From a virus, in the IMG/VR virus record IMGVR_UViG_3300021373_001471, positions 1 through 49,246 of that record: DNA of 49,246 nt. One strand, written 5' to 3'. Under the pieces are notes generated by a model. The model saw nothing but the letters and a program-made list of their open reading frames with translations, was not told the DNA's origin and ran no database searches. The position numbers and the translations under genes were made by a program. This document shows, one piece after another, positions 20,119-36,522 of this stretch (positions are counted from its first letter, which is position 1; each line of letters opens with the position of its first letter).

Positions 20119-20820
20119 ATGGGATTACCAATCCAAACTGCACCAACATATGTGTGCAATTTAAGTGATGGGAGAGAGGTAAAATATAGACCTTTCTTAG
20201 TTAAAGAACAAAAGTATCTTTTAATTGCAAAAGAAAGTGAGAGTTCAGTAGATATTGCAAATGCACTTATCCAACTGATAGATAGCACAACTTTCGGTAA
20301 AGTTGATGCAAAAAAACTTCCTTTATTTGATATAGAATATTTGTTTTTACAAATAAGAACTAAATCAGTTGGAGAAACTACAAAGGTTAGATACTTATGT
20401 GAAGTGACTGATTGTGAAGGTAGTGGAGAAGCAACTATAGATTTAAATAGTGTTGAACTCACAAAAAATGATAGTGACAATAAGTTAATGTTAACTGATA
20501 CATTAGGTGTAATATTAGATTACCCAAGTATAAGTGAATTATCTAAAATCGAAGAGATTGAAGATGCACAAGACCGTTTAATTGCAACTATAATGTATGG
20601 ATTAAATACAATTTTCGATGAAAACGAAGTGTATGAATCTAAAGATATCAAAGATTCTGATTTAAAAGAGTTTGTTGAAAGTCTAACACTAGAACAATTA
20701 GATAAAATAGAAAGATATTACATTAACACACCGTCATTAGAAAAAACGATAGAGTATTCATGCGAAGTGTGTGGAACTCAACAAGAAAGAATTTTAAGGG
20801 GTCTAAACTCTTTTTTTTAG
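20119..20820 (+). CDS. 26: Baseplate hub assembly protein gp26 family (0-frame product)
   Basis: 233 residues, a member of the T4 baseplate protein family that contains gp26. The family pattern is YRPFLVKEQKYLLIAKES at the N-terminus, then a Cys pair (CEVTDCEG), VELTKNDSDNKL...LGVILDYPS, and a C-terminal helix with LTLEQLDKIERYYINTPSLE followed by YSCEVCGTQQ. The two CxxxxC/CxxC pairs (about 94-99 and 215-218) could bind zinc. A GGAG ribosome-binding site precedes the ATG. The gene ends TCT TTT TTT TAG, an ideal -1 slippery site abutting the stop, which would extend some copies by 61 residues (see 20817-21002). Confidence 0.85.
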   Translation: MGLPIQTAPTYVCNLSDGREVKYRPFLVKEQKYLLIAKESESSVDIANALIQLIDSTTFGKVDAKKLPLFDIEYLFLQIRTKSVGETTKVRYLCEVTDCEGSGEATIDLNSVELTKNDSDNKLMLTDTLGVILDYPSISELSKIEEIEDAQDRLIATIMYGLNTIFDENEVYESKDIKDSDLKEFVESLTLEQLDKIERYYINTPSLEKTIEYSCEVCGTQQERILRGLNSFF

Positions 20821-20839
20821 TAGCTCTTTCTCATGAAAG
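20811..20839 (+). promoter_or_regulatory. Probable -1 programmed ribosomal frameshift signal
   Basis: Slippery heptamer T TTT TTT at 20811-20817 in the gp26 frame, followed at once by the TAG stop (20818-20820). Downstream after 8 nt is a small hairpin, CTTTC (20826-20830) and GAAAG (20835-20839) with a 4-nt loop, at the distance usual for stimulators of -1 slippage. The -1 frame is open for 61 further codons. Confidence 0.65.
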
Positions 20840-21002
20840 TTTAGTTGGTTATTATCAATCTAACTTTCAGTTAATGCAGGAACACAAGTACTCATTAACA
20901 GAATTGGAAGATATGATGCCATGGGAGAGAGAGATATATGTTCAACTCTTAGTACAACACTTAGAGGAAGAAAGAGAAAGGATTAGACAACAGAATAGTT
21001 AA
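20817..21002 (+). CDS. -1 frameshift extension of gp26: tail-chaperone-like domain
   Basis: After a -1 slip at 20811-20817 translation continues from base 20817 (re-read) for 61 residues, giving a 294-residue gp26 fusion. The segment LSHESLVGYYQSNFQLMQEH then KYSLTELEDMMPWEREIYVQ has the ExxYxLxELExMxxWEREIY pattern typical of the T part of G-GT tail assembly chaperones in long-tailed phages. It then becomes a charged helix. The frame has no ATG with a credible ribosome-binding site: the only long ORF start (20760) lies inside gp26 without a Shine-Dalgarno. It sits just upstream of the tape-measure candidate, as G/GT genes do in siphophages and P2-like phages. Independent initiation is the alternative. 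Confidence 0.65.
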   Translation, partial: LVALSHESLVGYYQSNFQLMQEHKYSLTELEDMMPWEREIYVQLLVQHLEEERERIRQQNS

Positions 21003-21046: not shown

Positions 21047-21436
21047 ATGAGTGATGAAAAGAAAGTAAGTACTGGTAATGTCGAGATAGACGTTGCAAAG
21101 TATACAGAAATGGTCTTGAAGTTAGACGAAGCTCAAGACAAAATTAAAGAGATGGAGAAGTTATCTAAGGAATTGCAGATTGCAACTGCAGCTGCAAAAC
21201 CTAAAGAGAAGTTTTCTATAGGTTCGTTGTTTAGAGATGAAAATGATATCAATGAGAAATCAATTATCGGTTTTATTTCATTCTTTTTAATGGTAGTGTT
21301 CGGAGTGTGTGATTTAATCACTGCATTTTGGGGACAAGACCTACTAATATCTGATACAATTTACACTTCATTTGTCGTAGTGACACTTGGTGCATTCGGT
21401 ATATCAGAAGCTGGTAAAGCATTCGGTAAACAATAA
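21047..21436 (+). CDS. Small membrane protein with two TM helices
   Basis: 129 residues. The N-terminal 60 are charged and helical (AKYTEMVLKLDEAQDKIKEM, coiled-coil potential). Two hydrophobic segments follow: about residues 74-97 (IIGFISFFLMVVFGVCDLIT) and 104-122 (IYTSFVVVTLGAFGISEAGK). It has a good ribosome-binding site (GAGGACACAAATT then ATG) and lies between the gp26/frameshift gene and the tape measure in the late operon. The topology (soluble N-terminus plus hairpin) would suit a holin, or a protein at the distal tail that contacts the inner membrane. Neither function can be shown from sequence. Confidence 0.7.
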   Translation: MSDEKKVSTGNVEIDVAKYTEMVLKLDEAQDKIKEMEKLSKELQIATAAAKPKEKFSIGSLFRDENDINEKSIIGFISFFLMVVFGVCDLITAFWGQDLLISDTIYTSFVVVTLGAFGISEAGKAFGKQ

Positions 21437-21444
21437 GGTAAAAT

Positions 21445-23844
21445 ATGGCAGACGATAGCATATATCTTCAACAAAGACAAAAAGAACAAGAGATTCTTAA
21501 GACAACTGAACAATTCAGTAAGAAATTTAAGAATGTCATAGGTAATTTACAAGAAGTAAACACCCCTCTTGCAAAAACTATTGCAGATTTGAGGGAAACT
21601 ACCAAAGGTTCTTTTAAAGCAGCTGCGAATGCCAAAGAATTACAACAATTTACCACAAAAATTGCAAAAGCAACTTCCGATAGTGCAGATACAACCACTA
21701 AATCATATCAAAAACTATCAGAAGGGTTAGATAGACTCAGTGGAACTAGTGGTTTTCTCGACCAACTCAAGCTTGCACAAGATAATTACAGTCTTAATCA
21801 ATCAAAAGTGATGCAACTTGAACAAGATATCGCAGATACAGAGTTTAAAAACCGTAAATCAATTCAAGACTTCAGAGATAAGATTGCAAAATTAGAATTA
21901 GACCGTATTCGTGCAGAAGGTTTAGGTCAAGAAGAGAATCTTAAAAAGATTACTACAGAAAAAGAGAAACAAGAGAAAGCACTTACCAAATTTGAAACTC
22001 AAATCTTTGATACAAAGAGAGAAGAACTTGAAATTCAAAAAAATCTTTTAGATACTTCTAAATCTAACCTAGAAAAACTCAACGAAACAGTAGACAAACA
22101 AGCAAAAGAGATAGCAGACCAAGATACTAAGTTCACTATGTTCGGTCAAGGACTAAAAGAACTTACTGGTTTTGATTTGTTAGGAACACTTGACACTGTA
22201 GTTGATAAAGTAGATGCAGTTGGTAAGATATTTGGTAATAAAGATTTATCGGGAACGATTGCAAGTGCATTTTCTTTTGGTGGAAATGACGATGTCATAC
22301 CTTCAATCGCAGGTGAATCTCAAGAAATAGACCCTGCAATTAAAATTGCAAAGAAAGAACTAAAAGAAACTGAAGAGATGGGTGATGATGTCGGTGATAT
22401 AAAAAGATTATTACAGGCGGGTTTTGCAAAAGATAGAGTAGTTCCTAATAATGAAGGAGGTGGGTTTGGTTTTAACTTTATTGGAGGAGACATATTAAAG
22501 AAAATAGGTGGACTCACAATTGGTGGTTATACCTTAAAACAAATTTTTAGTAAAGATAGTGCTAAAAAAGGTGGTAAAGGACTTTTAGGTGCTGTTATTG
22601 CAACTGCAGTTATTTCTGCATTGAACGATAGTTTTAAAGACCTTGGTGATATGGGTAATAGAGGAACAGACGACCCAGCAGTCGACCCTGATTCAACTGG
22701 TGCAAATACAACAACAAATGTAGGTTCATATTTAGGTGCTCAAGAAAAGACCACTTCTAAATTTAATAAAATTGATGCTTTAGCGAAAGTTGAAGAATTA
22801 AGATTTAAGGATGATGGAACACTTGATAGAAGAACTGGAGGATATAAGGACTTAGTAAAAGGACTAAAAACTGCAGAAAATCCACCAAAATATATGAGGA
22901 ATAAACAAGTACCAAATAAAAGATTATTACAAGAACTCTATAAAATCACTGGAACAAAAAATTTAGATGATTTACTAGATAGTCCAAAACTTAATGCTAC
23001 TAATATAGAAAAAGCATTTGCAAGAGCTCCAAGAAGTGCATTAGCACTTTCATTAAAACTAGATAAAGCTTTAAAAGCAGCTCCTGCAATAACTGGTGTT
23101 GTAGATGGAGTCTTAGACTTAAATGCCCAAAAAGACCAACAATCTTTTATCAGTAGTGTATTCGATATTGATACTATGGATGGTGAAACAACATTTGATG
23201 AAGAGACAACTAAATTAATAAACGATGTTTTTACAAAAAATCAACAAGGTTCAGTTGGAAGAGGTATTGGTTCTACAGTAGGTGCATCTACAGGTATCTA
23301 TTTAACTGGTAAAGGTATCGAAAAATCAGCAAGCTTCATTCCAGCTGGAACTATACCATCTGCAATAGCTAAGGGTGCTACACTGATAGCTGGTATAGGA
23401 ATATCATCTATAGGTGCAGCTCTTGGTGGTAATGTTGGAGATGAACTTGCAACATTTGATAAAAATGCACAAAAACTTCAAACCGAATTAGCAAATATTG
23501 CTTATCATTACCAACAAAATCCTCTTTCTGACATATATCAAAATGATAAATTAATGCAGAAAGCAGTCGATGCTGCAGTAATGAGATATAGAAATAATGT
23601 TCCAGTTGATAATGGTCAAGGTAGTGATATTGGTGGAAAGTTGCAAGAAAATAAGAATAATGAATTAGAACAGAAACATTCAAATGATAAGTACTTAAGA
23701 AATAAAAATGGTATTATAGATAAAGAAGTTTCTTCATTGAATAACTTTAAAAGTAATATTACAACCAATCATAATCATTACGGTAGGTCATCATTTCAAA
23801 ATCCCGATGCATCTGCAAGGATTTTAGACGTTAAATATTCTTAA
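21445..23844 (+). CDS. Putative tail tape-measure protein (gp29 position)
   Basis: 799 residues, the longest gene of the rightward arm. Residues 1-230 are an extended charged coiled coil (ILKTTEQFSKKFKNVIGNLQ, then EQDIADTEFKNRKSIQDFRD, KEKQEKALTKFETQIF). The rest alternates helical parts with glycine-rich hydrophobic segments: FGFNFIGGDILKKIGGLTIG (~345), GGKGLLGAVIATAVISALND (~378) and GTIPSAIAKGATLIAGIGIS with SIGAALGGNVGDE (~640). Coiled coils plus membrane-insertable Gly/Ala segments are characteristic of tape measures, which T4 gp29 (590 aa) represents. Placement after the gp26/frameshift pair supports the role. No direct sequence match to T4 gp29 is apparent. Confidence 0.65.
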   Translation: MADDSIYLQQRQKEQEILKTTEQFSKKFKNVIGNLQEVNTPLAKTIADLRETTKGSFKAAANAKELQQFTTKIAKATSDSADTTTKSYQKLSEGLDRLSGTSGFLDQLKLAQDNYSLNQSKVMQLEQDIADTEFKNRKSIQDFRDKIAKLELDRIRAEGLGQEENLKKITTEKEKQEKALTKFETQIFDTKREELEIQKNLLDTSKSNLEKLNETVDKQAKEIADQDTKFTMFGQGLKELTGFDLLGTLDTVVDKVDAVGKIFGNKDLSGTIASAFSFGGNDDVIPSIAGESQEIDPAIKIAKKELKETEEMGDDVGDIKRLLQAGFAKDRVVPNNEGGGFGFNFIGGDILKKIGGLTIGGYTLKQIFSKDSAKKGGKGLLGAVIATAVISALNDSFKDLGDMGNRGTDDPAVDPDSTGANTTTNVGSYLGAQEKTTSKFNKIDALAKVEELRFKDDGTLDRRTGGYKDLVKGLKTAENPPKYMRNKQVPNKRLLQELYKITGTKNLDDLLDSPKLNATNIEKAFARAPRSALALSLKLDKALKAAPAITGVVDGVLDLNAQKDQQSFISSVFDIDTMDGETTFDEETTKLINDVFTKNQQGSVGRGIGSTVGASTGIYLTGKGIEKSASFIPAGTIPSAIAKGATLIAGIGISSIGAALGGNVGDELATFDKNAQKLQTELANIAYHYQQNPLSDIYQNDKLMQKAVDAAVMRYRNNVPVDNGQGSDIGGKLQENKNNELEQKHSNDKYLRNKNGIIDKEVSSLNNFKSNITTNHNHYGRSSFQNPDASARILDVKYS

Positions 23845-35259: not shown

Positions 35260-35668
35260 TTAAATATTCTTCTAAACCGTGTATTCCTCTTTTGTATTTT
35301 TCTATTGTTTTCCTTAGTGTCTCTAAACATAAATGTTCAGTGACTCGTATATTGTATTTAGTTGGTTCTTCAAACACTTTATTAGTGTCTTCAAATCTAC
35401 CTTCCTTTATAGTATCCAGCCAAACTACATAATCTGCATCGACTATCTTTCTCATTTTCTTTAGAGGACAAATAAAGTCCATGATACCAAACTCACAAAA
35501 GGACATTCTATAGGCTTGTCTCATTCTTCCTTCTTCTGTAAAGTCCCAGTCGTTGTGTTTATCTCTTAACGTATCTGCATTATATAATGGTACACAAAAA
35601 TGATATGCAAGTTCTCTACCGATTGTAGTTTTACCTGAACCAGGCAGACCCATTATTAATACTCTCAT
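35222..35668 (-). CDS. APS-kinase-like P-loop nucleotide kinase
   Basis: 148 residues. GLPGSGKTT at 7-15 is a Walker A motif. YNADTLRDKHNDWDFTEEGR then MRQAYRM matches the DGDNxRxxxxxDLGFSxExR region of adenylylsulfate kinases (CysC). DYVVWLDTI with RFEDTNKVFEEP corresponds to the IYVDxPLExCExRD...YEPP end. APS kinase makes PAPS; phage members could instead phosphorylate a sugar or nucleotide. Next to an FkbM methyltransferase and a radical SAM enzyme, it may supply an activated or modified sugar. The ATG overlaps the FkbM stop by one base. Confidence 0.8.
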   Translation of the reverse strand: MRVLIMGLPGSGKTTIGRELAYHFCVPLYNADTLRDKHNDWDFTEEGRMRQAYRMSFCEFGIMDFICPLKKMRKIVDADYVVWLDTIKEGRFEDTNKVFEEPTKYNIRVTEHLCLETLRKTIEKYKRGIHGLEEYLNDATRLHSLLIT

Positions 35669-36522
35669 TACCTCTCAAAAAAATATTCTAACCATCTATC
35701 TCTACCACTCTCTTCTCTATATGCATGAACAGAGTCTGTAAGTTCTTGGTTAATTCTAAAACCTAAATCAAATAACTTTTGTTTTGTATTCTCATAATTA
35801 GGATTGTCATTTACAACTTCAATCATAATGTGTTTTACACTTTCTTCGATACACTTCCAACCACCTTCTATTATCAATGAATCATCTGTACCATCTACGT
35901 CAATTTTTAAAATGGTAGGAGAAGGAAGTTTATGTGTATACACTAGATTGTCTAGTGTCTCTTGCACTGTTCCAATTCTTACTCCTGTATCATTTTTATG
36001 AAACTCACTTGAGAAACCAATACCACCAAGTGAATTAGAAAACCATGACTTGTATGATACTTCATTTGATACTGGAACATTCATGGGTATAATTACATCT
36101 TCCAAATCATTTACTATTACGTTCTCTATAAGATAACTAAAGTTTCTTACGTTTGGTTCAAATGCATAAACATTTTTACAACCTAACTTTGCAGAGTATA
36201 AACTATACTGACCACAATTTGCACCTATGTCATAGAACACACTATCCTCTTCTATGATATTTTGCAACCATAGGTTTGTCCAAGGTTCCTTTACAAAAAT
36301 AGTTTCTCCACGTTGTCTTACTATTGCATCGATATCATGTTTGGGATACACAAAAATTATTTTTATATCTGTTTCTGATTCAGTTCGTTCTTTCAAAGTC
36401 CACGGTAAAAAAGTTTCCCAGTCTTCTACCATACCACGATAACTACACTTAGTGTAAATCTCTTTAGTTTCTTCTAAAGATAAAACACGAATTTTGTTTT
36501 TATTTTTTACGAAGTTTATCAT
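35668..36522 (-). CDS. FkbM-family methyltransferase
   Basis: 284 residues. SAM-binding motif I is YDIGANCGQYSLYSAK (97-112), then YAFEPN (119-124), and the C-terminal ILKIDVDGTDDSLIIEGGWK (204-223) with HIMIEV is the FkbM signature. These enzymes O-methylate sugars or natural products, often in O-antigen or capsule synthesis. In phages they usually accompany glycan-modifying genes. The first 80 residues are a helical extension. It overlaps the radical SAM gene by 23 nt, so the two are translated together. Confidence 0.88.
   Translation of the reverse strand: MINFVKNKNKIRVLSLEETKEIYTKCSYRGMVEDWETFLPWTLKERTESETDIKIIFVYPKHDIDAIVRQRGETIFVKEPWTNLWLQNIIEEDSVFYDIGANCGQYSLYSAKLGCKNVYAFEPNVRNFSYLIENVIVNDLEDVIIPMNVPVSNEVSYKSWFSNSLGGIGFSSEFHKNDTGVRIGTVQETLDNLVYTHKLPSPTILKIDVDGTDDSLIIEGGWKCIEESVKHIMIEVVNDNPNYENTKQKLFDLGFRINQELTDSVHAYREESGRDRWLEYFFER

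Follow-up and report, generated by a model that had tools for sequence, protein, structure and literature searches.

A conserved slippery site and a -1 frame gp51 domain at the end of gene 26 suggest a frameshifted tail-assembly chaperone in T4-like phages

The gp26 gene and its -1 frame extension

The window analyzed here is the whole 49,246-nucleotide stretch of viral DNA, and gp26 is found on its plus strand at positions 20119..20820, after a gp54/tube-like gene. The gene encodes a predicted short tail-assembly chaperone of 233 aa, with full-length profile matches to PF12322 (E=6e-51) and phrog_150 (E=4e-56) and an hhalign match to T4 gp26 (E=1e-18). Its predicted model (pLDDT 89) agrees with those of T4-like gp26 proteins. 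The 3' end of gp26 reads AAC TCT TTT TTT TAG, so that a slippery heptamer, T_TTT_TTT (20811..20817, plus strand), directly abuts the zero-frame stop TAG (20818..20820, plus strand), exactly as the first-pass annotation of this DNA had described. The heptamer sits inside a T8 run (20811-20818), of which the window contains only two. Amongst the 13,428 codons of the whole window, in-phase T_TTT_TTN occurs eight times, and besides gp26 just one of these has a stop within four codons; its -1 frame stays open for just two codons. This second site, a T_TTT_TTT four codons before the stop of a minus-strand gene at 35668-36522, looks incidental.

Past the heptamer, the -1 frame is open on the plus strand over 20817..21002, comprising 61 codons (20817-20999), the length first reported for it, and a stop (21000-21002). 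The junction between the gp26 C-terminus and the extension reads ...GLNSFF|LVALSHES..., the extension itself runs LVALSHES...RQQNS, and the predicted fusion is 294 residues long, with GLNSFFLVALSHESLVGYYQSNFQLMQEHK as the predicted junction-spanning peptide of the window phage. The extension matches phrog_634 (E=2e-27), a family annotated as gp51, the "baseplate hub assembly catalyst" of T4-like phages, and aligns with the C-terminus of T4 gp51. The initial proposal that its residue pattern resembles the T extension of lambda-type chaperones was replaced by a named gp51 domain, and no relationship to lambda gpT was found. Pfam matches of the extension to MobI, Stealth_CR2 and RE_HaeIII were rejected as sub-threshold noise, and no useful match came from NCBIfam.

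At the local stop frequency, a 60-codon open frame would arise by chance with a probability of about 1.25%. Within the extension, dN/dS was 0.075 in the -1 frame versus 1.2 and 2.8 in the other two frames; these values come from 1,474 informative pairs that are not independent, yet the contrast between frames is large. Substitutions numbered 13,773, 6,909 and 28,014 by codon position. Because of the contrast in dN/dS, the comparative data indicate that the extension is evolving as a protein, under purifying selection in the -1 frame alone.

Downstream of the chaperone lies an ORF of 129 aa (21047-21436) that probably contains a membrane segment and matched no family convincingly; it is followed on the plus strand by a long protein of 799 aa (21445..23844) that is a tape-measure candidate by position and length only. 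Profile searches of the latter against Pfam and PHROGs gave no family match. Sister loci carry ORFs of 105-130 aa and 620-800 aa, respectively, at these two places. The fusion had initially been placed just upstream of the tape-measure candidate; it is upstream, but the 129-aa ORF intervenes. The 799-aa protein is the probable client of the chaperone.

Conservation of the slip site and of an upstream Shine-Dalgarno-like element

Homologues were gathered from IMG/VR and from annotated phages, giving 170 loci with a complete gp26 end, which were aligned, and a non-redundant subset of 111 divergent loci that was used for the codon, start and anti-Shine-Dalgarno (anti-SD) tests. The set included uncultivated marine phages, the cyanophages S-PM2, P-SSM3, S-CAM1 and DSL-LC03, Vibrio jumbo T4-likes, and Rhizobium, Stenotrophomonas and Acidovorax phages. 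An in-phase T_TTT_TTN was found 0 or 3 nt before the gp26 stop in 169 of the 170 aligned loci, the stop following the heptamer directly in 57 loci and one codon later in 112. Conservation of the slip site and the -1 frame in related phages, which the first-pass annotation had proposed as its check, was thus observed, and it is more decisive against a chance arrangement than the length of the open frame. The lone exception, which has a local frame change, is a near-copy of Stenotrophomonas phage Mendera. In that locus (L175, IMGVR_UViG_2974778117), gp26 enters another frame near the slip site and extends to 280 aa, possibly through a single-base change or an assembly error.

Positions 1-6 of the heptamer are fixed, and the last is free (C in 90 loci, T in 57, A in 20 and G in 2). 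The first Phe codon is TTT in all 111 non-redundant loci against a background of 0.70, and the codon before it varies (AGT, TCT, GAT, AAT, GCT or GGT). Around the slip site, the zero-frame residues vary and the T positions are constant.

An internal Shine-Dalgarno-like (SD-like) element, AAGGGG, is located at 20796..20801 on the plus strand, with a 9-nt spacer to the heptamer; the first-pass annotation did not mention it. Scanning the loci for anti-SD pairing revealed a single dominant peak in 8-nt windows whose first base lies 16 to 14 nt before the heptamer, with a lowest mean of -6.7 kcal/mol versus -0.84 +/- 0.95 over all positions, and the peak was at that position in about 92% of the 111 loci. 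The element overlaps conserved Glu/Arg/Lys-Gly codons, where Glu is encoded by GAG 58 times versus the 28.3 expected from the codon usage of the individual genes (z=7.2, an upper bound given that the loci are related). Because of this excess of GAG, the SD-like nucleotide sequence itself appears to be under selection.

The small hairpin that had been noticed 8 nt downstream of the heptamer (CTTTC-TCAT-GAAAG, 5 bp; 20826..20839, plus strand) is present but weak, and its conservation ends with the clade, which makes it a doubtful stimulator. Amongst 22 clade sequences, 93.6% of cells were paired and no compensatory changes were detected; no consensus fold was detected downstream of the slip site in 50 loci outside the clade; and the mean folding z of the downstream windows was a modest -1.25. 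The hairpin was consequently rejected as a conserved stimulator, and the alignments support the upstream SD-like element in that role.

Frameshifting and alternative routes to the gp51 domain

Altogether, the aligned loci demonstrate that the slip site, the SD-like element and the extension are conserved and that many loci have no separate start. On this evidence it is very probable that gp26 and the -1 frame constitute one gene with two products made through -1 frameshifting, and the fusion originally suggested for this locus has strong comparative evidence in the conserved slip site and extension. The majority of ribosomes would terminate at 20818 and release the 233-aa short chaperone (TAC-N, gp26). 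A minority would stall over T_TTT_TTT, helped by 16S anti-SD pairing with AAGGGG and by the adjacent stop codon, and both tRNA-Phe would slip back one base in tandem, giving the 294-aa long form gp26-gp51 (TAC-NC). If the two products act as lambda G and GT do, the short one would coat the tape-measure protein, the C-terminal domain of the long one would recruit tail tube or hub subunits, and neither would remain in the virion. We infer that frameshifting occurs, as well as its efficiency and, from the lambda analogy, the chaperone roles of the two forms.

GenBank annotation instead treats gp51 as a separate short protein, which would have to be made by termination-reinitiation or from its own start. 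In S-PM2, Vibrio CZ01, Rhizobium RHph_I34 and Stenotrophomonas Mendera, an ATG stands at the gp26 stop or shortly after it (overlapping it in the Vibrio, Rhizobium and Mendera phages), and in lineages with such an overlap reinitiation, and with it separate synthesis of gp51, is possible. However, 24 of the 111 loci, including the nearest sister lineage of the window kept in that set, contain no ATG, GTG or TTG from the upstream -1 stop to residue 9 of the extension; 43 of the 111 lack an ATG in the same interval; and the start positions, where any exist, are not conserved. Separate initiation therefore cannot be the general mechanism. The earlier statement that the -1 frame has no credible start of its own was strengthened by the start-less loci and needs one qualification, since the window has a non-conserved -1 frame ATG at 20760, with the heptamer 51 nt downstream of it. 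A separate gp51 would additionally leave the slip site and the internal SD unexplained, and in T4 gp51 the domain is joined to a gp26-like part, all of which makes this route highly improbable as a general account.

An identical fusion protein would result if RNA polymerase slipped on the T8 run and added one U, so that some mRNAs encoded the fusion by ordinary translation. The window's clade has the T8, but most relatives keep only a T6 bounded by C, A or G, in the same phase, and T6 is short for polymerase slippage. The relatives also keep the SD-like element, which acts on ribosomes and would not be needed upstream of a transcriptional slip. Overall, polymerase slippage seems very unlikely, although a shade less so than a separately made gp51; judged from sequence alone, it may still occur in the window's clade. 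That the two frames are a single gene that decayed or was mis-assembled would fit the error-prone nature of T runs and the frame change near the site in the Mendera near-copy. This reading is already refuted by conservation as judged from the alignments, and its probability is close to negligible: three independent contigs (L001, L002 and L006), with gp26 identical to that of the window, share the T8 and the -1 frame, and 111 divergent loci preserve the arrangement.

Ackermannviridae, the T4 gene pair and known frameshift systems

In Ackermannviridae, gp26 keeps a conserved -1 extension with an MPWHL motif (Vi01, locus L089, 1938-2900; also L186 and L189), and the extension has no start of its own in Vi01, PhaxI and UPM2146. 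The canonical heptamer is absent from all five Ackermannviridae loci examined and from two more Vibrio phages of the same layout. The Ackermannviridae site without the canonical heptamer is ATTTTCATTTAA; enterobacterial and Dickeya phages have ATT TTC ATT TAA there, and the Vibrio ones CTT TTT or CTT TTC. One guess is that these frames are joined by single-codon slippage on TTC or TTT.

In T4, gene 26 (208 aa, minus strand) adjoins gene 51 (249 aa, plus strand), and both products are listed as hub assembly chaperones (PMC3004832). The two systems share their protein families, with the short product corresponding to gp26 and the long one to gp51 with the same C-terminal domain; they differ in that T4 has two genes on opposite strands, whereas the locus studied here has one gene with a -1 slip site. 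By tblastn, residues 13-284 of the fusion, used as the query, aligned to the one-ORF gp51 found in T4-type phages. By hhalign, the window gp26 matched the T4-type gp51 profile (E=2.5e-8), and T4 gp26-type and gp51-type profiles matched each other (E=3e-8). PHROGs places both T4 gp26 and gp51 in phrog_150 and the gp51 C-terminus in phrog_634. T4 gp26 ends GLKEFFELL, of which GLKEFF resembles the gp26 ends described here, with a broken slip site (GAG TTC TTT GAG), and T4 gp51 reads through into the segment equivalent to YYQSNFQLMQEHKYSLTELEDMMPWER. The predicted model of T4-like gp51 was of low confidence (pLDDT 66) and was left out of the comparisons. At E=9e-4, T4 gp26 (locus L081, 30803-31429) also matches phrog_1140 (gp28, the distal subunit of the baseplate hub), which may point to a third relative.

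Sullivan et al. (2010) described cyanophage and vibriophage gp51 without the first ~200 residues (PMC3037559). Sequence comparison indicates that the "truncated" cyanophage gp51 is the tail that frameshifting adds in a gp26-gp51 fusion, the absent residues being gp26, and the frameshift fusion with gp26 would therefore account for the missing ~200 residues. A wider proposal, possible but rather doubtful, is that T4-likes outside the T4 group mainly make the chaperone pair, and originally made it, from one frameshifted gene that has T_TTT_TTN and a conserved internal SD, that T4 genes 26 and 51 arose afterwards by duplication with loss of the slip site, and that this is undescribed for cyanophages and their marine relatives.

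According to a 2016 review (PMC5009743), G-T frameshifting is conserved widely amongst long-tailed phages, T4 being the exception. In later papers that cite their work, Vladimirov, Gautam and Davidson (2022) are credited by the PRFect paper (PMC10885494) with the finding that some T4-likes have separate short and fused long chaperone genes, and by the Adele paper (PMC12846349) with poly-T slip sites in the chaperone genes of T4-likes; the latter paper also reports a similar GTTTTT case in other families. Judging from those citations, the T4 26/51 pairing is already known and the T4-like slip site is probably known in part, so the first-pass remark that frameshifting was not known as a described gp26 feature in T4-likes was too strong. 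None of the papers searched was found to describe the internal SD, the loci without a start for the extension, or the present explanation of truncated gp51. Marine T4-like phages would join the G/GT rule that T4 was said to break (PMC5009743), the annotation of hundreds of phage records would be corrected, and the phages would offer a natural comparison of frameshifting with gene duplication for setting a chaperone ratio.

Of the known systems, the TAC-N genes of Vandenendeviridae and Andersonviridae with GTTTTT (PMC12846349) likewise end a short chaperone gene in a poly-T -1 slip site, with the downstream frame annotated as a separate hypothetical gene; they belong to other phage families, and the site described here is an in-phase T_TTT_TTN accompanied by an SD-like element. 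Like the present locus, lambda gpG/gpGT is a late tail gene that yields a short and a long form through -1 slippage close to its 3' end; here, a tape-measure candidate is nearby. It differs in its slip site (G_GGA_AAG versus T_TTT_TTN), and the present locus has no detectable homology to it, a stop directly after the heptamer in the window, and a conserved upstream SD-like element. PDB sequence and fold searches (fold at E<=0.001) gave no match, and thus no link to lambda-type G or solved TACs; the gene would work like a G/GT chaperone by analogy, and descent from G/GT has no fold or sequence match behind it. In E. coli dnaX, too, an internal SD precedes a homopolymer-like slip heptamer, at a distance of about 10 nt that is similar to the 9-nt spacing in the window. 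In dnaX, the heptamer is A_AAA_AAG, a strong hairpin lies downstream, and frameshifting makes a shorter, not a longer, product.
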